Shown here one piece after another: positions 6,433 through 29,607 of a DNA stretch of 37,333 bases. Below the pieces are notes generated by a model. It was not told the DNA's origin. It searched no databases and was given only the letters and a program-made list of their open reading frames with translations. Positions within the stretch are counted from its first letter, which is position 1. Every line of letters begins with the position of its first letter. A program made the translations under genes and the position numbers. Location of the stretch: contig JAFYJV010000026.1 in assembly GCA_017537965.1 (NCBI GenBank), forward strand, positions 1 through 37,333. The letters are read 5' to 3'. Source of the stretch: Bacteroidales bacterium. Its GTDB lineage: Bacteria > Bacteroidota > Bacteroidia > Bacteroidales > F082.

Positions 6433-6497
6433 CAACAAAAGAAATGGTTGTTGATAACTTTCATCAGACACGCACAACAAAACCCTGTCAAAAAACG

Positions 6498-6505
6498 TAC
6501 TTTTG
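6498..6505 (+). promoter_or_regulatory. Bacteroidota -7 box for the parA operon
   Basis: TACTTTTG matches TAnnTTTG 37 bases before the parA start and follows the DUF3276 terminator. No convincing -33 box is seen. Confidence 0.5.
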
Positions 6506-6542
6506 CCCAACGATTATTAAGTCATCAATCTGAGATATATTC

Positions 6543-7316
6543 ATGGGAAAAATCATCGCTATAGCCAACCAAAAGGGCGGCGTGGGAAAGACCACCACGG
6601 CCATCAACCTGGCTGCCAGCCTTGCCGTCCTCGACCATAAGACCCTACTTATCGATGCCGATCCACAAGCCAATGCCACCTCGGGCGTGGGCTTCGATCC
6701 GAAAACAATTGAGACCAGCATCTACGAGTGCATCATCGAGCGCACCGACCCACACAAGGTCATCGTGGAAACCGAAACACCCAATCTCTTTCTGCTGCCC
6801 GCACACATCGACCTTGTCGGTGCCGAGATTGAGATGATCAACCTCCCTGAGAGGGAAAAAATGATGCGACAGACTTTGGCGACCGTCAAGGGAGAATATG
6901 ATTTCATCATCATCGACTGTTCCCCGTCGTTGGGCCTCGTCACCGTCAACGCCCTCACCGCCGCCGACTCCGTCATCATCCCGGTACAATGTGAATACTT
7001 TGCACTCGAAGGGCTCGGCAAGCTGCTCAACACTATCAAGATCGTGCAAAACCGCCTCAACCCCGAATTGGACATCGAAGGCATCCTGTTGACCATGTTC
7101 GACACCCGTCTCCGCCTGTCAAAGCAAGTGGTCGAGGAAGTCAAGATGCATTTCCAAGACATGGTGTTCGACACCATCATCAACCGCAACACACGCCTTG
7201 GCGAAGCACCCAGTTTCGGCAAGACCATCATCATGCACGACGCCGGATCGGTTGGCGCCATCAACTATCTAAACCTTGCCAGGGAAATCTTGGAAAAGAA
7301 CCCTTCATTAAATTGA
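6543..7316 (+). CDS. parA: ParA/Soj chromosome partitioning ATPase
   Basis: The protein has 257 residues, standard for chromosomal ParA (Soj). It shows the deviant Walker A motif KGGVGKTTT near residue 11 at the very N-terminus, LLIDADPQANAT as the A' motif, and IIIDCSPSLG as Walker B. There is no N-terminal helix-turn-helix, which fits a chromosomal rather than a plasmid ParA. It binds DNA non-specifically as an ATP dimer and is cleared by ParB, driving origin segregation. parB starts 13 bases downstream. Together with DUF5683 and dapB this makes a tight operon. Confidence 0.95.
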   Translation: MGKIIAIANQKGGVGKTTTAINLAASLAVLDHKTLLIDADPQANATSGVGFDPKTIETSIYECIIERTDPHKVIVETETPNLFLLPAHIDLVGAEIEMINLPEREKMMRQTLATVKGEYDFIIIDCSPSLGLVTVNALTAADSVIIPVQCEYFALEGLGKLLNTIKIVQNRLNPELDIEGILLTMFDTRLRLSKQVVEEVKMHFQDMVFDTIINRNTRLGEAPSFGKTIIMHDAGSVGAINYLNLAREILEKNPSLN

Positions 7317-7329
7317 AAGAAAGAGCAAT

Positions 7330-8232
7330 ATGTCAGATAACAATAAGAAAAACAGAGGTTTAGGACGCGGCTTGGACGCCATCTTGCAGAGTCCCGAGAC
7401 AGACATCACCAGCAGGGACATCAGCGGCGATTATGTCGCAGGCGCCGTTGCCGAGATCGACATCAACCTCATCGAGACCAATCCTTTCCAACCACGCACC
7501 GAGTTCGACCAGGAAGCGTTGGAAGAATTGGCACACTCCATCAAAGAGCAGGGCGTCATCCAGCCCGTCACCGTCAGAAAACTTGGATACAACCGCTACC
7601 AGCTGATCTCGGGCGAACGCCGACTGAGAGCCTCCAAACTCGCTGGGCTCTCCAAGATCCCGGTATTCATCCGCATCGCCAACGACGAGCAGATGCTGGA
7701 ACTTGCACTCATTGAGAACATCCACCGCGAAAACTTGAACGCCATCGAAGTGGCCATCTCCTATCAACGACTCATCGACGAGTGCAACCTCACCCAAGAG
7801 CAGTTGAGCGAAAAAGTGGGCAAGAGTCGCTCTGCCATCGCCAACTTCCTGCGCTTGCTGAAACTCCCAGCGGAGATCCAGATCGCCCTCCGTGATGGCC
7901 ACATTACCATGGCACACGCACGAGCTCTCATCAACGTGGAAGACAAAGAGGCGCAGCTGAAACTCCTTCAGCAGATCATCGAAGACGAACTCAATGTCCG
8001 ACAAACCGAGGATCTCGCCAACAAAGCCAAGATCACGGACAACAGCAAGGAGCCGCGCAAGCAGACCAACTACCTGCCCGACCATTTCAAGGCACAGATC
8101 AAGACGCTCTCACAGGCGCTGAACACCAAGGTCAAGGTGAAACGCAACCTCAAAGGCCAAGGCAGCGTCGTCATCGACTTCAAGAACGAAGCCGAATTCG
8201 ACCGCATCATTCAACTCTTCAACAAGCAATAA
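7330..8232 (+). CDS. parB: ParB/Spo0J chromosome partitioning protein (CTPase)
   Basis: The protein has 300 residues. The N-terminus contains the Lys/Arg-rich ParA-contacting segment (KKNRGLGRGLDAIL). It is followed by the CTP-binding ParB domain with NPFQPRTEFD and the GERRLRAS box, then the HTH domain that reads parS (LTQEQLSEKVGKSRSAIANFLRLL is split here around residues 155-178). The C-terminal dimerisation domain ends at the stop. ParB loads at parS and spreads as a CTP-dependent clamp. I found no convincing parS site within this window. The stop codon abuts the ATG of the next gene, indicating translational coupling. Confidence 0.95.
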   Translation: MSDNNKKNRGLGRGLDAILQSPETDITSRDISGDYVAGAVAEIDINLIETNPFQPRTEFDQEALEELAHSIKEQGVIQPVTVRKLGYNRYQLISGERRLRASKLAGLSKIPVFIRIANDEQMLELALIENIHRENLNAIEVAISYQRLIDECNLTQEQLSEKVGKSRSAIANFLRLLKLPAEIQIALRDGHITMAHARALINVEDKEAQLKLLQQIIEDELNVRQTEDLANKAKITDNSKEPRKQTNYLPDHFKAQIKTLSQALNTKVKVKRNLKGQGSVVIDFKNEAEFDRIIQLFNKQ

Positions 8233-8805
8233 ATGCCACGCCGCCTCCGACATTGCTGCTGTCTCCTATTGGGATGCGTCCTCTTGTTGTCCTCCATGAC
8301 GGTACAAGCCCAGAAAAAGACGCATAGCCCCAAGAAAGCCGGCATCATGTCTGCCATCCTCCCAGGTCTCGGTCAGGTTTACAACGGCAAATGGTGGAAA
8401 GTACCCATCGTTTACGCAGGTCTCGGAGGCATAGGTTATCTTGCATACAGCAACTACACCGACTATCAAACCTTTCTGAACGCCTATAAGATCAAAACGG
8501 GCAACCTCGAAGAAGGAGTAACTCCCAGTACGATTGAGCTTCAACTGGCCGAATACTACCAAGCCAGCCAACTGCAGACTTACAAGGAAAGCTACCGGCG
8601 CGACTTTGAGTTGTATTGCATCCTTCTCGGTGTGTGGTATGGGCTCAATATAGTAGATGCTGTTGTTGACGGGCACCTATACACCTACGACATCAGCGAT
8701 GACCTGAGTTTTAGCATAGACCCCAATTTCAACATCCCCGAAGCGCCTTGTCTTTGCTATTCCGGCGGGCGACAGACGGGGCTTACTTTTGCTTTCCATT
8801 TTTGA
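8233..8805 (+). CDS. DUF5683 membrane protein
   Basis: The protein has 190 residues with a signal peptide or first membrane segment (residues 8-25, ending VQAQ). It then carries the DUF5683 signature: an AILPGLGQVYNGKWWKVPIVYAGLGG-type segment around residues 41-66, a Tyr-rich region and a second hydrophobic stretch near residues 122-137. The function is unknown. It is regularly found between parB and dapB in Bacteroidota, as here. The ATG directly follows the parB TAA with no gap, so it is probably translated by coupled re-initiation. The C-terminus looks extracytoplasmic. Confidence 0.85.
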   Translation: MPRRLRHCCCLLLGCVLLLSSMTVQAQKKTHSPKKAGIMSAILPGLGQVYNGKWWKVPIVYAGLGGIGYLAYSNYTDYQTFLNAYKIKTGNLEEGVTPSTIELQLAEYYQASQLQTYKESYRRDFELYCILLGVWYGLNIVDAVVDGHLYTYDISDDLSFSIDPNFNIPEAPCLCYSGGRQTGLTFAFHF

Positions 8806-8806
8806 C

Positions 8807-9544
8807 ATGAAAATAGCACTCATAGGATACGGAAAAATGGGCCATGAGGTGGAGAAAACCGCACTCGCCCAAGGCCATGAAATCGTTGTCACCATCGACA
8901 ACGAACAGGAATGGGACGAACGCCTGTCTCTTTTGAAACAAGCCGACGTTGCCATTGAGTTCAGTCAACCCGACCAGGCATTTGCCAACATCAACCGTTG
9001 TTTCGACCTTCATTTACCCATCGTGGTGGGTACCACGGCTTGGTACGGCCATCTTGACGAAGTCAAACAGCGCTGCAAAAATGAGGGACAGAGCCTGTTT
9101 TACGCCCCCAACTTCAGCATCGGCATGAACATGGTCTTCATGATGAACAAGCAACTGGCACGTTTTGCAGAGCAATACGGCTATTCACTAAAAGTGGCTG
9201 AGACCCATCATATTCACAAGCTTGACAAGCCCAGTGGAACCGCTGCCAAACTCGCCAACGACATCCTCGCCGAGAGCAGCCGTTACCAACGTTGGAGTAT
9301 CGACGAGCCCACATGCCCCGAAACCATTTCAGGAGAAGCCTGCGATGTCCTTCCCATTGAAGTCACTCGCGAGGGCGAGGTGTTCGGCATCCACAGCGTC
9401 ACCGCCTTATCCTCTGCCGACCGCATCACCCTCACCCACGAGGCCTTCAGCAGAGAAGGTCTTGCCAAAGGCGCCCTTGCTGCCTCACAGTTTTTAATGG
9501 GTAAGAAGGGCTGCTTCACAATGGAGGATTTGTTTGGCGCCTAA
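8807..9544 (+). CDS. dapB: 4-hydroxy-tetrahydrodipicolinate reductase
   Basis: The protein has 245 residues if started at the ATG at 8807, one base after the DUF5683 stop; the longer frame from 8789 would overlap that gene and adds nothing conserved. The Rossmann motif GYGKMG lies at residues 7-12, and the catalytic motif ETHHIHKLDKPSGTA at residues 132-146. DapB reduces 4-hydroxy-tetrahydrodipicolinate with NAD(P)H on the way to diaminopimelate and lysine, so it feeds peptidoglycan synthesis. It is the last gene of the parA-parB-DUF5683-dapB run; lepB has its own promoter. Confidence 0.95.
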   Translation: MKIALIGYGKMGHEVEKTALAQGHEIVVTIDNEQEWDERLSLLKQADVAIEFSQPDQAFANINRCFDLHLPIVVGTTAWYGHLDEVKQRCKNEGQSLFYAPNFSIGMNMVFMMNKQLARFAEQYGYSLKVAETHHIHKLDKPSGTAAKLANDILAESSRYQRWSIDEPTCPETISGEACDVLPIEVTREGEVFGIHSVTALSSADRITLTHEAFSREGLAKGALAASQFLMGKKGCFTMEDLFGA

Positions 9545-9565
9545 AGGCTGTTTTTGTTATCTTTG
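9533..9565 (+). promoter_or_regulatory. Promoter of lepB (-33 and -7 boxes)
   Basis: TTTG at 9533-9536 and TATCTTTG at 9558-9565 are separated by 21 bases, matching the Bacteroidota sigma-ABfr promoter. The -33 box overlaps the last codons of dapB. Confidence 0.7.
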
Positions 9566-9618
9566 CAAAATAATAAACGGAAGCAATTCCCGTTAATAGT
9601 GAAATTGTATTATAAAAT

Positions 9619-11133
9619 ATGTCACTGATTCTCTTCATCATCCTAATTCCTGCCCTGTTCACAGTGCCGATCGCGTTCACCTGGAAGCAGTTCAAAGCCG
9701 CAGGTCAAAAAGGCTGGCAGGCCTTCGTTCCTTACCTCAACATCTTCGTGCTGTTGAAGATCATCAAGAAACACAAGAAATTCTGGTGGTGGTTTTTCAT
9801 CATCTTCCCGTATATCAACATCTTCATGCTTTTCCTCATGCTCATCGAGCTGGGCAAATGCTTTGGCCGGTTCAAAGTGTGGGAGGAATTCATGGCCGCC
9901 ATCCTGCCTTTCATCTTCTTCCCGCTTATCGTGAAGGATGACCCTTATCAGGATCCCGCCACCGCCAAGAGGCCCAAGAAATCGACCGCCCGCGAGTGGT
10001 TCGATGCCATCGTGTTCGCCGTAGTGGCCGCCTTGATCATCCGCACCTATGTATTCGAGGCCTTCACCATCCCGACCTCCAGCATGGAGAAGTCGCTCTG
10101 CGTAGGCGACTACTTGATTGTCAGCAAGATCCACTACGGTCCCAAACGCCCCAACACACCTTTGTCGTTCCCATTTGTACACAACACGTTGCCTTTTAGC
10201 ACCACCAAGAAATCATATCTAGAGTGGATCAAATTGCCCTATCACCGCTATCCCGGCGTATCCACCATCAAACGCAACGACCCCATCGTGTTCAACTACC
10301 CTGCTGGCGACACCGTATGCGACAAGTTCCAAAGCAGCATAAGCTACTACGACCTCATCCGCGAATACGGCCGTCAGAGAGTTTGGACTGACCACGCCAA
10401 CTTCGGCAATGTCATTGCCCATCCAGTGGACAAGCGAGAGAACTACGTGAAGCGCCTCATTGGCATGCCCGGCGACACCCTGCAAATTATCGACGGGGTA
10501 GTGTATATCGACGGCAAACCGGGATTCCAGCCCGAAAACATGCAGTTCAACTATACCGTCACCACCACAGGCAATGGCATCAACCAACGAATCCTCGACA
10601 CCTACCATATCACGGAAGCATACCGCGGTGCCTCACCCAACGAAGCCATCATGAACATCAGCGAGAAGGTGGCCGTGGAACTTCGAAAGCTCCAGTTCAT
10701 CACCTCTGCCGAAAAGCGCATCACGCCAGCCGGACAAGGCACCAACTACGAACTCTTCCCCCACCGTCCCGACCTTTATCCCTGGAACGTTGACAACTAC
10801 GGCCCCATCGTGATGCCAAAGAAAGGCGAGACCATACAACTCAACATGGAAAACCTGCCTTTGTACGAACGCATCATCCATGCATACGAGCTTCATGACC
10901 TGCAAGTCAAAGACAACCAAATCCTTATCGACGGCCAGCCCGCCGACAGTTACACTTTTGCCATGGATTATTATTGGATGATGGGCGACAACCGCCACAA
11001 CTCAGCCGACTCGCGCTACTGGGGTTTCGTGCCCGAAAACCATATCGTAGGCAAGGCGATCTTTGTTTGGCTCTCCCTTGACAAAGAAAAAGGCGGTATC
11101 CGTTGGGATCGAATGTTTAGGATTCCAAAATAA
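9619..11133 (+). CDS. lepB: Signal peptidase I
   Basis: The protein has 504 residues. Residues 1-105 form a hydrophobic N-terminal extension with about three membrane segments (DUF5684-like), absent from the enterobacterial enzyme. A further membrane anchor lies at about 130-150. The catalytic Ser155 is in IPTSSMEKSL and the general base Lys278 in ENYVKRLIGMPGD. The last conserved box is MMGDNRHNSADSRYWGFVP near the C-terminus. Between the Lys box and the last box is a long insertion of about 150 residues, usual in this phylum. It cleaves signal peptides of exported proteins such as the neighbouring LolA-like protein. A strong promoter precedes it. Confidence 0.93.
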   Translation: MSLILFIILIPALFTVPIAFTWKQFKAAGQKGWQAFVPYLNIFVLLKIIKKHKKFWWWFFIIFPYINIFMLFLMLIELGKCFGRFKVWEEFMAAILPFIFFPLIVKDDPYQDPATAKRPKKSTAREWFDAIVFAVVAALIIRTYVFEAFTIPTSSMEKSLCVGDYLIVSKIHYGPKRPNTPLSFPFVHNTLPFSTTKKSYLEWIKLPYHRYPGVSTIKRNDPIVFNYPAGDTVCDKFQSSISYYDLIREYGRQRVWTDHANFGNVIAHPVDKRENYVKRLIGMPGDTLQIIDGVVYIDGKPGFQPENMQFNYTVTTTGNGINQRILDTYHITEAYRGASPNEAIMNISEKVAVELRKLQFITSAEKRITPAGQGTNYELFPHRPDLYPWNVDNYGPIVMPKKGETIQLNMENLPLYERIIHAYELHDLQVKDNQILIDGQPADSYTFAMDYYWMMGDNRHNSADSRYWGFVPENHIVGKAIFVWLSLDKEKGGIRWDRMFRIPK

Positions 11134-25917: not shown

Positions 25918-27146
25918 GCTTCTCTCTCGTCCTTTTCATTATTATTCTGTGTTTCCATCAACCGTCTTGATTCTTGCAATTCACTTTGTAACAATTCCAC
26001 ACGTTCTATCAATTGTTCCTGCGTCGGTAGAGCATCAGCAATTCGAATATTATTGTATGTGGCCACCCCCATCGGTGTATTGATTCCCCTAAACGACCAT
26101 TGAACATCGGCTTTATTCAGATTTGAACAGATCAGAAGCCCTATGGTAGGATTATCTTCACTTTGTTTCAGCAACTCATCAACTGCGTTGACATAGAAAT
26201 TCAACTTGCCAGCAAATTCAGGCTCAAATGGTCTTGCTTTCAACTCACAAACTATGTAACAATGCAGTCGGATATGGTAAAACAACAAATCTATCTTACG
26301 CGATCTACCACCAACAATGATTTCTTTTTGACGACCAAGAAAAGCAAAGCCAGTCCCAAGTTCCAAAAGCAAATCCGTAATACTCTTGCTTAAGGCTACT
26401 TCCAATTCATGCTCATCGTAGGTCACGTGATCTACAGTGGCAAAACCAAAATCATAATTCTCTTTCACTACTTGTTGTGCAAACTGGGATAATTGGGGCG
26501 TGAGATGCTGTGGGAAATTATTAGGTGCCTTTCCTCGTTTATGGAAAAGGTCTTCGGACATAACATGCTCCAAAGCATCACGACTAATGCCTTCTTCTAT
26601 GGTATAACCAACGTAAAACAATGCTTCCTCGATAGTTTGTGAATGTTGCATGATTCGTATATGATGTCCCCATGGAACACATAAAAAAGGCATGGGAAAT
26701 TCTGAAACGACCTGTTTCAGTTTTTCTTCACCCTCCCATTCATCCCCTATTTGTTGTAGCTTTTTCCAATAATTCTCTTTTGGCAACAATTCTGAAACAG
26801 CCTGTTTCACTTTCCCCGATTTCTCAGTATAGAATAGGTACCATTGTTTCATGTACCAAAGATTTCTTGATGAGAAATTATTGCTGCTGGGAAACTCTTT
26901 CTTCATATCAAGGCTTACCTGCTCTACTACACCCGTCCCCCAGCGTTCCTCTGCCTTTTTTATTACAAGGTCACGGCCAAGTTGCCAATTGTACAACAAC
27001 TTCTCTACATTTATCTTGAATGCAGCTTTCACCTGTGCTGAACGGTATCGTCGTTTCAATTCCGCGATCCACACTGCATAATCCTTATCTAGATGGATAT
27101 CATGCGTCTTTACCATACGCGGGTGCTCTTCTTGTTTCTCTAACAT
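25914..27146 (-). CDS. DUF1016 (YhcG-type) PDDEXK nuclease family protein
   Basis: The protein has 410 residues. Residues about 15-170 are the DUF1016 N-terminal domain (VEKLLYNWQLGRDLV, SSRNLWYMKQWYLFY). Residues about 235-390 are the PDDEXK nuclease-like domain, with the active-site series D in RSRKIDLLFYH and E-x-K in IVCELKARPFEPE. A short coiled coil (QLIERVELLQSELQESRRL) closes the protein. Homologues lie in defence and restriction neighbourhoods, but a substrate is not established. The gene is convergent with miaB (four-base overlap), AT-richer than its surroundings, has its own promoter and is flanked by an 18-base direct repeat, all pointing to acquisition. Confidence 0.88.
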   Translation of the reverse strand: MLEKQEEHPRMVKTHDIHLDKDYAVWIAELKRRYRSAQVKAAFKINVEKLLYNWQLGRDLVIKKAEERWGTGVVEQVSLDMKKEFPSSNNFSSRNLWYMKQWYLFYTEKSGKVKQAVSELLPKENYWKKLQQIGDEWEGEEKLKQVVSEFPMPFLCVPWGHHIRIMQHSQTIEEALFYVGYTIEEGISRDALEHVMSEDLFHKRGKAPNNFPQHLTPQLSQFAQQVVKENYDFGFATVDHVTYDEHELEVALSKSITDLLLELGTGFAFLGRQKEIIVGGRSRKIDLLFYHIRLHCYIVCELKARPFEPEFAGKLNFYVNAVDELLKQSEDNPTIGLLICSNLNKADVQWSFRGINTPMGVATYNNIRIADALPTQEQLIERVELLQSELQESRRLMETQNNNEKDEREA

Positions 27147-27201
27147 ATTTATTATATTTTCAATTCTTATATTAAATCTATTGTTTTAATATTTTGGCCT
27201 A

Positions 27202-27231
27202 CAAAAATACAATTATTTTAATACTAATCAA
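27202..27231 (-). promoter_or_regulatory. Promoter of the DUF1016 nuclease gene
   Basis: On the minus strand TTG (27231-27229) and TATTTTTG (27209-27202) are spaced by 19 bases, a full Bacteroidota promoter, giving a leader of about 50 bases. Confidence 0.7.
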
Positions 27232-27388
27232 CTATTACAATGAAATTGATATAACATTTTTAGATTTATTTATAAAACGAAAATAGCAAATAGGCCTTCT
27301 AAACCTTTTCTTGACCTGGGAATCCACATACGAAACGAGCCTCATGATTGTTTTACAAAGAAAGATGGCTTCTGAATTGATTTCTTAT

Positions 27389-27396
27389 TATCTTTG
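27389..27396 (+). promoter_or_regulatory. -7 box upstream of the small open frame
   Basis: TATCTTTG matches TAnnTTTG 25 bases before the ATG at 27422. No -33 box is visible at the right distance. It may be a relic of a former gene's promoter. Confidence 0.4.
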
Positions 27397-27421
27397 CAAA
27401 CAATAATCAGTATTATATACA

Positions 27422-27493
27422 ATGCCGAAATCACCAGAAGAAATAAAAGAATTACTGGAATTGGCATTGTCGATTGAGGGGGAATTGGTATAA
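27422..27493 (+). pseudogene. 23-codon open frame, possible gene remnant ending in a copy of the miaB tail
   Basis: ATG to TAA encodes 23 residues (MPKSPEEIKELLELA then LSIEGELV). The last third repeats the ALSIEG end of MiaB at both DNA and protein level. It has a -7 box and ends three bases before the SGNH hydrolase stop on the other strand. It is either a small peptide gene or the scar of an insertion or duplication; the second seems likelier. Confidence 0.35.
27463..27480 (+). repeat. Direct repeat copy 2
   Basis: GGCATTGTCGATTGAGGG matches the miaB-tail copy at 25881-25898 in 17 of 18 positions and in the same orientation and reading phase. Confidence 0.7.
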
Positions 27494-27495
27494 CT

Positions 27496-28233
27496 TTATT
27501 CTATGTATTTCTTGATTTCCTCCGCCCACCTGTTGTATGCCTCGGGAATAAGATGAACGCCATCACGCGTCAATTCTTTTGGCATCTCGCCATCATTTTC
27601 GTACAACGACCACAAATCCACATAAACGCAGTTTGAACGGGCTGCTATTTTTGCTATTGTTTCATTTGATTTTATGATTTTTTCGCTGCTTGCGCGCCCT
27701 TTGCACATAGAATGATTCACTGGTAAAATGCTCTGCAAATAAATCTCTGCCTGAGGTACCGCACTTTTGATGGAATCCACCATACCTTGATACTGCGTCT
27801 CAAAAGTCTTCTCCGATTTGCGTCGCAAACCATTTATGCCCGTCAAAACAAATACTTTTTCGGGATGTACTACCTTAACTTGTTTTACCCGAAGCATTAC
27901 GCCATTCATATTATCGCCAGGATAGCCTAAATTGCAGGTTTTCACATTCGGAAAGTAATCTTGAAAATTTCCTCCACAAGTCTGTGAACTTCCAATAAAA
28001 ACAACATCAGCATCATAATCCATCTTTCTCAGTGTGTTCGTCCATCCTTGAATACACCAATAGTCACCTCGATTTCTTGGGTTCAATTCGCATAGTCCTA
28101 AGCTATTTCCCATTATTTGGAAATAATGCGTCTTTGAATTCATCTGACTAATTCCAACCAGCAAAACTACATTTGCCACCAATGACAGAACTAATGTCGC
28201 CACAAGTCCTCTGCTGTTTTTTGTATTTTTCAT
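27496..28233 (-). CDS. Membrane-anchored SGNH/GDSL-type hydrolase
   Basis: The protein has 245 residues. An N-terminal membrane helix or uncleaved signal (residues 10-30) is followed by an SGNH hydrolase fold. Block I is VVFIGSSQT (nucleophile S83, with GSS in place of GDS), block II is NLGYPGDN, block III is LTGINGL (N134), and block V is D224-x-x-H227 in RDGVHLIPEAY. Family members are esterases or O-acetyl hydrolases acting on sugars, glycans or lipids; the substrate here is unknown. The gene stands alone on the minus strand. A structured RNA with a terminator lies directly upstream, so expression is probably controlled by attenuation. Confidence 0.85.
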   Translation of the reverse strand: MKNTKNSRGLVATLVLSLVANVVLLVGISQMNSKTHYFQIMGNSLGLCELNPRNRGDYWCIQGWTNTLRKMDYDADVVFIGSSQTCGGNFQDYFPNVKTCNLGYPGDNMNGVMLRVKQVKVVHPEKVFVLTGINGLRRKSEKTFETQYQGMVDSIKSAVPQAEIYLQSILPVNHSMCKGRASSEKIIKSNETIAKIAARSNCVYVDLWSLYENDGEMPKELTRDGVHLIPEAYNRWAEEIKKYIE

Positions 28234-28280
28234 TTGATTTGATAGTTTTCACCTAACTATCAATCACATCCGAAAGACTG

Positions 28281-28311
28281 AAAACAAAAGGTGTGAGCCT
28301 TTCTACTCACA
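28281..28311 (-). terminator. Intrinsic terminator in the leader of the SGNH hydrolase gene
   Basis: In the minus-strand RNA TGTGAG (28311-28306 on the other strand) pairs with CTCACA (28297-28292) around an eight-base loop. It is followed by CCTTTTGTTTT. It lies about 48 bases before the hydrolase ATG. Its 3' arm extends to GCTCACACC, which is perfectly complementary to an upstream GGTGTGAGC, so an antiterminator can form instead. Confidence 0.75.
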
Positions 28312-28550
28312 TTCACGGGAAGCGTAGGAAGAAACCCGTCTAACTACGATAGATGCAGCTCACACCAATACTGGCGAGCATTAACTTCAGTAGTTAGTTG
28401 GGCACCTGCGTCCCATGAATTAGGCTGTTATCCGTTTTTCAGAACAATCAGTTTCCTACGCTTTATGTTCGAATGTGATAATAGCTAATGCCTTGTTATT
28501 AAATATGTTAGTTTACCTTTCTTACTATACCATGTACCGTTTTTGAATGA
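28290..28550 (-). ncRNA. Structured leader RNA / candidate attenuator or riboswitch of unknown class
   Basis: Read on the minus strand from the predicted start near 28550. A 10-bp closing stem pairs AGCGTAGGAA (28462-28453) with TTCCTACGCT (28330-28321). Inside it CTAACTAC (28397-28390) pairs with GTAGTTAG (28347-28340), extended by CCC/GGG (28402-28400 with 28337-28335). On top is an apical hairpin with ATG/CAT, CTC/GAG and CCA/TGG steps. A rival hairpin ACGGG/CCCGT (28339-28335 with 28319-28315) is also possible. Downstream GCTCACACC (28298-28290) can pair with apical GGTGTGAGC (28366-28358), a perfect 9-bp alternative to the 6-bp terminator. The signatures of TPP, cobalamin, tmRNA, RNase P and SRP RNA were looked for and not found; a 6S-like RNA is the main alternative. 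Confidence 0.65.
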
Positions 28551-28555
28551 CGTTG

Positions 28556-28563
28556 CAAAAATA
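28556..28563 (-). promoter_or_regulatory. -7 box of the structured leader RNA
   Basis: On the minus strand TATTTTTG matches TAnnTTTG and lies about 94 bases before the closing stem of the RNA. The nearest TTG for a -33 box is 24 bases away, wider than usual. It is divergent from the promoter of the four-helix-bundle gene. Confidence 0.55.
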
Positions 28564-28730
28564 GTGTTTTTTGAATACATCATCCTTCAACGGCTCATAT
28601 TTGTGAAATAAAAATAATTTCGAAAACTCGGATAAGCTAGTAAAGCACTTCCGCTCAACATCTTTTCTAATATGTCTGCCAATCATTGTTGATGTTTGAA
28701 GAAGAAAAAGAATTATAATACATAAGCATA

Positions 28731-28762
28731 TTGCAAATTAGTATATAAAAATATTATTTTTG
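28731..28762 (+). promoter_or_regulatory. Promoter of the four-helix-bundle gene
   Basis: TTG at 28731-28733 and TATTTTTG at 28755-28762 are separated by 21 bases and lie 25 bases before the ATG. The promoter is intact although the gene is interrupted. Confidence 0.65.
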
Positions 28763-28787
28763 CAAAACACGGCAAAAAAAACATCTT

Positions 28788-29531
28788 ATGCAGATTAACA
28801 GATTCGGGTATTACTGGTTGGATACTTGGGTGTTGGCCAACGTGATACAACTGGCCACGCAAGACTTCTGCACTCGCTATCTTAACCGCACCAATGATCC
28901 ATGTGGGCGACAATATGACCAGATGACACAGGCGGCGCGTTCCGTTCCAGCTAACATTGCAGAAGGCAACTCACGGCACTCCACTTCCAAAGAAACAGAG
29001 ATGCGCCTCACGGACGTGGCCAGGGCAAGTTTGGCGGAATTGGCCAACGATTATGTAAACTGGCTCATACGGCATGAAGTAATACCATGATCGGCAAAGT
29101 CGGTAGAACACAAAAGAGTCTGTTACACCCCCTTAGACCCTCCAACCTATAAAGACGATGTTCAACACCTTAGCAGCATCCACATCCTGGAGCAAAAGCA
29201 CAAGTTTGACACTTGGCTCTGTTCCAAGAATTCCATGACAGAAGCCAACTGTCTGCTCGTCCTATGCAATCGCCTCATCATGATGTTGGGCAAACAAATT
29301 GAAAATCAACTTGAAGTCTTCAGAGTAGAAGGTGGCTTCACCGAAGCTTTGTCAGCCGAAAGACTCGCTCACAGAGCAGAACAAAGTGCCCAAGCGAATG
29401 CACCACTTTGCCCTAAATGCGGCAAGCCGATGATAAAACGCATGGCCAAAAAAGGCAAAAACGCTGGCAATGAGTTTTGGAGTTGTTCAAGCTATCCAGA
29501 TTGCGATGGGACAAGGAGTATTTCGTTATAA
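28788..29531 (+). pseudogene. Four-helix-bundle protein with topoisomerase-type zinc ribbon, interrupted by an in-frame TGA
   Basis: A 247-codon frame is broken by one TGA at 29088-29090. The first part (100 residues) is a four-helix-bundle domain of the 23S rRNA intervening-sequence type (RQYDQMTQAARSVPANIAEG, KETEMRLTDVARASLAEL). The second part continues in the same frame without any other stop: KHKFDTWLCSKNS, EANCLLVLCNRLIMMLGKQ, then a C4 zinc ribbon of topoisomerase type (CPKCGKPM, WSCSSYPDC). The TGA falls after EVIP, where I would expect Pro-Trp in relatives, so a TGG-to-TGA change is the simplest explanation. An internal ATG at 29235 could start the second half. Function is unknown; such proteins are common in Bacteroidales genomes. 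Confidence 0.8.
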
Positions 29532-29557
29532 CGAATTTTCTAATAATGTAATTACGA

Positions 29558-29590
29558 TTTGGATCAATCCTTCAAAAAGCCGTAACTTTG
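29558..29590 (+). promoter_or_regulatory. Promoter of mtaB (-33 and -7 boxes)
   Basis: TTTG at 29558-29561 and TAACTTTG at 29583-29590 are separated by 21 bases. The -7 box ends 17 bases before the ATG, giving a leader of about 10 bases. Confidence 0.75.
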
Positions 29591-29607
29591 CCGAATGATT
29601 TGGTGAA

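Follow-up and report, generated by a model that had tools for sequence, protein, structure and literature searches.

A candidate fold-switching leader RNA in front of functionally unrelated genes of Bacteroidota

Does the structured region in front of an SGNH/GDSL hydrolase gene of a Bacteroidales bacterium (lineage F082; assembly GCA_017537965.1, contig JAFYJV010000026.1) control that gene, and does it belong to a known class of leader RNAs? The window—the whole stretch of DNA analyzed, 37,333 nucleotides in length—had been predicted from its letters to carry a new riboswitch or attenuator serving the hydrolase gene. The reading that we prefer, with a probability of about 0.72, is an uncatalogued class of cis-acting 5′ leader RNA, which controls transcription of the next gene by switching between two folds and which is borne on cassettes in one of its branches, family I.

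Every helix named in the original prediction was found where it had been placed, on the minus strand. This first observation is confirmed and was indeed understated; stem P0, a conserved 5′ block, a possible pseudoknot, and a hairpin preceding the ATG were absent from it. The large hairpin domain of the window element spans 28478-28307 on the minus strand. The features, in the order in which they would be transcribed, are:

28563-28556, minus strand: promoter box of the Bacteroidota type (-7), TATTTTTG, 46 nt 5′ of the conserved 5′ block
28509-28479, minus strand: conserved 5′ block AACATATT-N10-GCATTARCTATTA, which forms a small hairpin, H1, across the wider family
28484-28491 and 28385-28378, minus strand: PK1, 5′ strand GCATTAGC complementary to 3′ strand GTTAATGC, a possible pseudoknot from the 5′ block to the middle of the element
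28478-28471 and 28314-28307, minus strand: stem P0, 5′ strand TCACATTC pairing with 3′ strand GAATGTGA
28462-28453 and 28330-28321, minus strand: closing stem P1, 5′ strand AGCGTAGGAA pairing with 3′ strand TTCCTACGCT
28397-28390 and 28347-28340, minus strand: 8-bp stem P4, 5′ strand CTAACTAC pairing with 3′ strand GTAGTTAG in the minimum-energy fold, outside the covariation count
28371-28379, minus strand: 5′ arm of the apical hairpin P5, placed by covariation in the 48 family I sequences
28366-28358, minus strand: 3′ arm of P5, GGTGTGAGC, common to P5 and the alternative helix AT
28298-28290, minus strand: 3′ arm of AT, GCTCACACC, pairing with the P5 3′ arm at 28366-28358
28350-28353, minus strand: TCTA, the extension of AT, pairing with TAGA at 28305-28302
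28302-28305, minus strand: TAGA, the partner of TCTA, placed by covariation
28339-28335 and 28319-28315, minus strand: HP, ACGGG pairing with CCCGT across the P1 3′ strand
28298-28303, minus strand: 5′ arm GAAAGG of the short, terminator-like hairpin T, pairing with CCTTTT at 28291-28286; found mainly in family I
28289-28281, minus strand: U-tract TTTTGTTTT, immediately 3′ of AT
28265-28236, minus strand: start-codon hairpin GATTGATAGTT...AACTATCAAATC, ending 2 nt 5′ of the start codon
27496-28233, minus strand: cargo gene encoding an SGNH/GDSL hydrolase of 245 aa (PF13472, E 3.8e-17)

We take TATTTTTG to be a promoter box on the basis of the Bacteroidota -7 consensus TANNTTTG; the transcript would be predicted to start a few bases 3′ of this box. 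The 148-nt hairpin of the window folded better than 200 of 200 shuffled sequences (z -4.9), and a 240-nt version of the element folded better than 199 of 200 (z -3.8). A further possible hairpin, TGTGAG/CTCACA, was returned by the terminator scan at 28311-28292 on the minus strand, overlapping P0 and AT.

Near full-length copies of the element were found by blastn, among 100 related genomes, in seven other genomes, where they precede different genes; two of the genomes (G012 and G077) carry two such copies each. The left-end pattern of the 5′ block, with at most one mismatch, was present in 37 of the 99 genomes of the genus, and a reversed control pattern in 0 of 99. The left-end pattern was also present in 32 contigs of a named genome set, assigned to Bacteroidales, Bacteroidia, Bacteroidetes, Salinivirgaceae, Paludibacteraceae, Limimorpha, or Colimorpha. 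Of 393 Bacteroidales genomes searched with a covariance model of 48 family I sequences, 55 gave matches under strict filters at E ≤ 0.001. The window copy was the sole strong family I copy of its genome, with three weaker matches elsewhere, and many of the weaker matches to this model represent a second branch, subfamily II.

The family I alignment comprised 48 of 70 full-length copies, near-duplicates having been removed. Across these 48 non-redundant homologues, both of the mutually exclusive folds that had been predicted were conserved with compensatory changes. Fold A (P0, P1, P5, and T) had compensatory changes at 24 of 34 pairs, with 90.4% of the alignment cells paired, and fold B (AT, TCTA/TAGA, and ACGGG/CCCGT) at 16 of 20 pairs, with 92.7% of the cells paired. 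Within fold A, pairing reached 95.0% of cells in P0 (5/8 pairs compensatory), 82.8% in P1 (7/10), 95.8% in P5 (6/9), and 88.3% in T (6/7). Within fold B, the nine-pair part of AT was paired in 97.1% of cells, and 8 of 10 pairs of the extended helix had changed on both sides, which bears out the predicted 9-bp pairing; since P5 and AT share an arm, this covariation could partly be carried by P5. The TCTA/TAGA extension was paired in 92.2% of cells (3/4 pairs compensatory), and the second exclusive pair, ACGGG/CCCGT, sited as had been predicted, in 86–89% (5/6). In shuffle controls, which ignore phylogeny, 0 of 500 shuffles scored as high as either fold in cells paired, in double changes (by pairs and by cells), or in covariation score; the count of further pair types is a weak measure, reached by 59/500 shuffles for fold A and 20/500 for fold B. 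When the partners were slid by 1–3 columns, pairing fell to 39–49% in fold A and to 40–61% in fold B.

The weaker matches that were inspected make up subfamily II, which follows the plan of family I in different letters. It was represented by alignment A4 (31 of 33 seeds; L143 and L146 were left out) and alignment A7 (31 of 33 places, mostly from more distant families; L177 and L186 were left out); one locus is counted in both sets, as L116 in A4 and L156 in A7. In A4, P1 covaried at 8/8 pairs and AT was kept, with 95.3% of cells paired and 5/7 pairs compensatory. Both folds recurred in A7, the third alignment, with its 31 members. For both folds in A4 and A7, no shuffle out of 500 equaled the alignment in cells paired or in covariation score; the number of pairs changed on both sides was matched by 35/500 shuffles in an A4 fold test and by 2/500 and 45/500 in A7, and that of further pair types by 53/500 in one A4 fold test. 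The PK1 strands were paired in 87.4% of subfamily II cells, a double change being seen at a single pair of the eight (A-U 11, U-A 10); PK1 is thus a possible pseudoknot that rests on one strongly covarying pair. In A7, a further pseudoknot is suggested by pairing in 79.7% of cells and compensatory changes at 3/4 pairs. A subfamily II model of 31 sequences detected matches in 62 of 395 Bacteroidota genomes across the phylum (E ≤ 0.001, strict filters). Five places of the window genome matched this model, the window copy among them, weakly (E 0.0019).

This covariation in two folds supports the predicted cis-acting leader RNA of riboswitch or attenuator architecture. The two-state leader is real and structured, and it would work like an attenuator or a riboswitch, possibly a ligand-binding one. 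Two conserved, mutually exclusive helices with a common strand were found, as was a putative terminator stem followed directly by a U-tract. At least 6 U within the 9 nt after AT were present in 46/48 family I sequences, 29/31 in A4, and 22/31 in A7, together 97/110 sequences, with one locus entering twice; the background is 3–7% of all 9-mers. The local hairpin T, with an energy of -4.2 kcal/mol in the window, was present in 42/48 family I sequences, 10/31 in A4, and 3/31 in A7; shuffled segments contained such a hairpin in 15–19% of cases. T is therefore mostly absent from subfamily II, where its frequency is near the shuffled rate. Because T is rare and AT lies directly before the U-tract in the wider family, AT is best read as the terminator stem. 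The original prediction had taken the short hairpin for the terminator and the 9-bp pairing for the antiterminator; these labels are probably reversed, given that T is rare outside family I and that the 9–10-bp helix precedes the U-tract. AT would probably be the terminator stem, and the pseudoknotted fold A the antiterminator. In family I, T also precedes the U-tract, so either fold could end transcription.

The mechanism that we propose begins with fold A, in which P0, P1, P4, and P5, together with probable pseudoknots of the 5′ block, would form a compact domain occupying the 3′ arm of P5; with fold A formed, RNA polymerase would presumably read on. In fold B, P0, P1, and P5 would yield, the ACGGG/CCCGT hairpin would form, and the 3′ arm of P5 with the tail before the U-tract would make up a long intrinsic terminator. 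A signal, either a small molecule or a protein, would set the balance between A and B. Full folds were calculated without pseudoknots or ligand, and the helices enforced as fold A differed slightly among the three alignments; on these terms, the calculations favored fold A over fold B. The median advantage was 15.7 kcal/mol in family I (A ahead in 44/48 sequences), 10.7 kcal/mol in A4 (30/31), and 9.0 kcal/mol in A7 (27/31). Since fold A is predicted to be far more stable, it would be the default, fold B would need something that delays or undoes A, and a small ligand alone may be unable to shift the balance. Any simple ligand model is most vulnerable at this predicted energy gap.

The same stability bears on the idea that a host RNA-binding protein or a processive antitermination complex binds the 5′ block or H1 and drives the switch, the short copies described below being the binding site alone. 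A protein acting co-transcriptionally is easier to picture against a very stable fold A than a small ligand is, and the 5′ block is the most invariant part of the element, kept alone before the genes of arrays; the short copies may, however, be mere deletion remnants. We regard this idea as less likely than not, though not remote. It is a special case of the fold-switching leader and not an exclusive alternative to it.

A promoter upstream and a same-strand gene downstream were the further attenuator features found, the promoter box in 23/50 cases only. In these 23 cases, out of 50 distinct regions upstream of family I copies, TANNTTTG was located 46–72 nt before the 5′ block; the six control windows each contained it in 0–2 of 48–50. 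When the distance was anchored elsewhere, it was found in 17/46 family I regions, the controls giving 0–2 except for one window (6/46). A promoter box was present in 2 of 7 usable subfamily II cases, and array-internal copies appeared by eye to be mostly without TANNTTTG. The longest downstream ORF was on the same strand in 69/70 family I and 58/61 subfamily II cases. The ATG was located -25 to 70 nt from the model end in 66/72 family I and 38/59 subfamily II cases; in 21/59 subfamily II cases the chosen ORF started 71–750 nt away. One locus, L089, which is cut and has wrong element coordinates, was left out of the promoter and orientation counts, while its ORF is within the 72. Since the hairpin is strong and itself ends like a terminator, it might also belong to a stand-alone, 6S-like small RNA lying upstream of the gene by chance. 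This is very improbable in view of the same-strand orientation and the short spacing to the downstream start codon, and the Rfam 6S covariance model, a check that the original prediction had named for a stand-alone RNA, did not match the window.

The start-codon hairpin pattern was found in 39/48 family I copies, with the ATG 3–7 nt past the matched pattern. In the window this hairpin folds with -10 kcal/mol (z -2.4; 4/200 shuffles were as good). At locus L019 a similar start-codon hairpin is formed by a different sequence, and several subfamily II leaders also appear by eye to have one. An additional pairing between the 5′ block and this hairpin is plausible in family I; the arms differ in subfamily II. 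Control could be translational, the ribosome site being masked by the hairpin, into which the upstream structure would feed. The recurrence of the hairpin close to the ATG, including from unlike sequence, is consistent with such control, but the conservation of AT and the U-tract is left unexplained by it, and as the principal mode of action we consider it unlikely. It is compatible with the fold-switching leader as a second layer, and the hairpin may add translational control there.

A leader peptide encoded in the P5 region could allow attenuation by the translating ribosome; in favor of this, an ATG at the foot of P5 opens short ORFs in many copies. Their length and frame vary between copies, several copies are without the ATG (by eye), and no conserved run of codons was seen, which makes this mode extremely improbable. 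A peptide-leader attenuator was rejected, no conserved short reading frame having been seen by eye.

The absence of signatures of a known class, noted in the original prediction, was upheld: the copies tested matched no Rfam 15 family and hence no known aptamer class in it. At the Rfam 15 gathering threshold, the window gave only a tRNA and a 5S rRNA, both elsewhere in the window; 20 subfamily II loci gave only a tRNA, and 10 loci of weaker matches only DUF805 RNA, in L111. Permissive Rfam searches with the window region, L162, and L120 gave either nothing or weak matches far below the gathering scores. Terminating riboswitches and attenuators likewise have a promoter, a long conserved leader, an exclusive terminator fold, and a same-strand gene; unlike these, the class of the window is without an Rfam 15 match in the copies tested and its cargo is functionally unrelated. 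Literature searches turned up no title or abstract that describes the element. On the strength of these searches and of Rfam, the leader RNA class is apparently new, although a motif survey, such as that of 224 motifs from 2017, may already contain it.

Several structured RNAs of the same phylum carry Rfam numbers in the motif listing of one survey from 2010—Bacteroid-trp, Bacteroidales-1, Flavo-1, and 6S-Flavo (PMC2864571)—and none of them matched the element copies at the gathering threshold. The same listing contains two Bacteroidetes motifs without an Rfam number, Bacteroides-2, reported from a single sequenced organism, and GUCCY-hairpin, found also in Proteobacteria (PMC2864571); either could conceivably be an earlier sighting of the class.

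Neither branch of the class is tied to one kind of gene. EcoRI-type adenine methylases accounted for 41 of 72 family I downstream proteins; N6 and C5 methylases, MmeI-type enzymes, a Tsp45I-type enzyme, glycosyltransferases, GDSL/SGNH hydrolases, sulfatase-fold enzymes, and an acyltransferase were also present (among the best 25 of 34 matching families; the family counts overlap and must not be summed). In subfamily II, the TonB plug domain was found in 12/59 proteins and an N6 methylase domain in 7/59 (among the best 25 of 44 families), and many of the cargoes resemble lipoproteins or secreted proteins by eye. The 72 family I and 59 subfamily II proteins were not made non-redundant, and 3 of 62 subfamily II places yielded no ORF. 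The window-branch leader thus precedes functionally unrelated cargo, of which the SGNH hydrolase is one among many, and the predicted dedicated regulator of this gene did not hold.

Leader and cargo shift their chromosomal position between species. In the window, they lie within the following block:

25918-29607: 3.7-kb block with a DUF1016/YhcG nuclease, the SGNH gene, the RNA element, an S23-type protein, and a 98-aa ORF, between miaB-like and mtaB-like genes

In genomes G033 and G012 (L200, L202), these two flanking genes overlap and no block separates them, the miaB-like protein being 87% identical in that comparison; other genes precede mtaB in G038 and G058. The SGNH unit adjoins ruvB in G033 and G012 and is one gene away from it in G002; in the window genome, ruvB is on another contig. 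Elsewhere, a 1.6-kb unit of element plus cargo in L034 (1468-3064) and L035 (5086-6682) is 97% identical between different flanks; its cargo is of the DUF2334 type, and it has short inverted repeats at the right end. L034 and L036 have the same upstream gene and different cargo. Short copies with the 5′ block alone precede small genes in same-strand, single-gene arrays, at L045 (G001:C28) 6479-10959 and at L072 2448-6416, the latter ending with a full element and a methylase. The genes behind the short blocks are presumably DUF1016, RhuM-like, and KilA-N-like.

Such arrays, the unit between different flanks, the exchanged cargo, and the two settings of the SGNH cassette, at ruvB in two genomes and inside the miaB-like/mtaB-like pair in the window, could all be explained by a role at the DNA level. 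An integron-like recombination or attachment site would then be provided by the 5′ block or by the folded strand, and the RNA structure would be a by-product. Integron gene cassettes with attC sites come close to this picture, with one gene per cassette, a single orientation within the array, and a conserved site that folds; unlike attC, the site of the element precedes the start codon, is 240+ nt long, and has two alternative folds and a U-tract. In the arrays with the short block, too, the site precedes each ORF and does not follow it, as compared with integron cassette arrays. A DNA-level role does not account for the two alternative folds, the U-tract, and the upstream promoter box, nor for the subfamily II copies preceding lipoprotein, secreted-protein, and TonB-receptor genes, and homologous recombination inside the shared leader could itself yield cargo swaps. 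We consider such a role quite improbable. A likeness of the 5′ block to the Xer dif site was dropped, no inverted repeat having been seen.

For the fold-switching leader, the best reading of these positions is that the class spread partly with mobile cassettes; the family I leader would travel with its cargo genes as a cassette. Searches of the window sequence against phages and plasmids gave no match, nor did viral contigs searched with three patterns, L120 against plasmids, or L155 against phages. In the plasmid search, L162 led to two Bacteroidota plasmids and L155 to one.

A rather doubtful extension of the fold-switching reading is a portable regulatory RNA, a self-contained switch driven by a ligand or factor, which would have spread horizontally across the phylum and brought defence and cell-surface genes of unrelated function under a common signal. 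If true, DNA methylases, restriction enzymes, glycan-modifying enzymes, and TonB receptors would share a signal such as phage attack or entry into a new host. It has long been asked how DNA-modification genes are controlled once they have entered a new cell, and the cargo of the window branch is dominated by such genes, chiefly the EcoRI-type methylases (among the best 25 of 34 families). Present in about 1 in 6 of the Bacteroidota genomes sampled, and without an Rfam 15 match in the copies tested, the class would represent a sizeable regulatory RNA of this phylum that still lacks an explanation. Both folds are precise enough for a direct test by mutation and re-pairing.

Two side observations concern subfamily II. 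In L111, DUF805 RNA (RF03081; 1817-1882) lies approximately 110 nt downstream of the subfamily II element. Partial subfamily II matches were found on the mobilizable plasmids of Rhizosphaericola mali (L191) and Chryseobacterium shandongense (L192); the matches carry no annotated feature and precede a hypothetical protein, followed about 850 nt further on by a T9SS-sorted protein.
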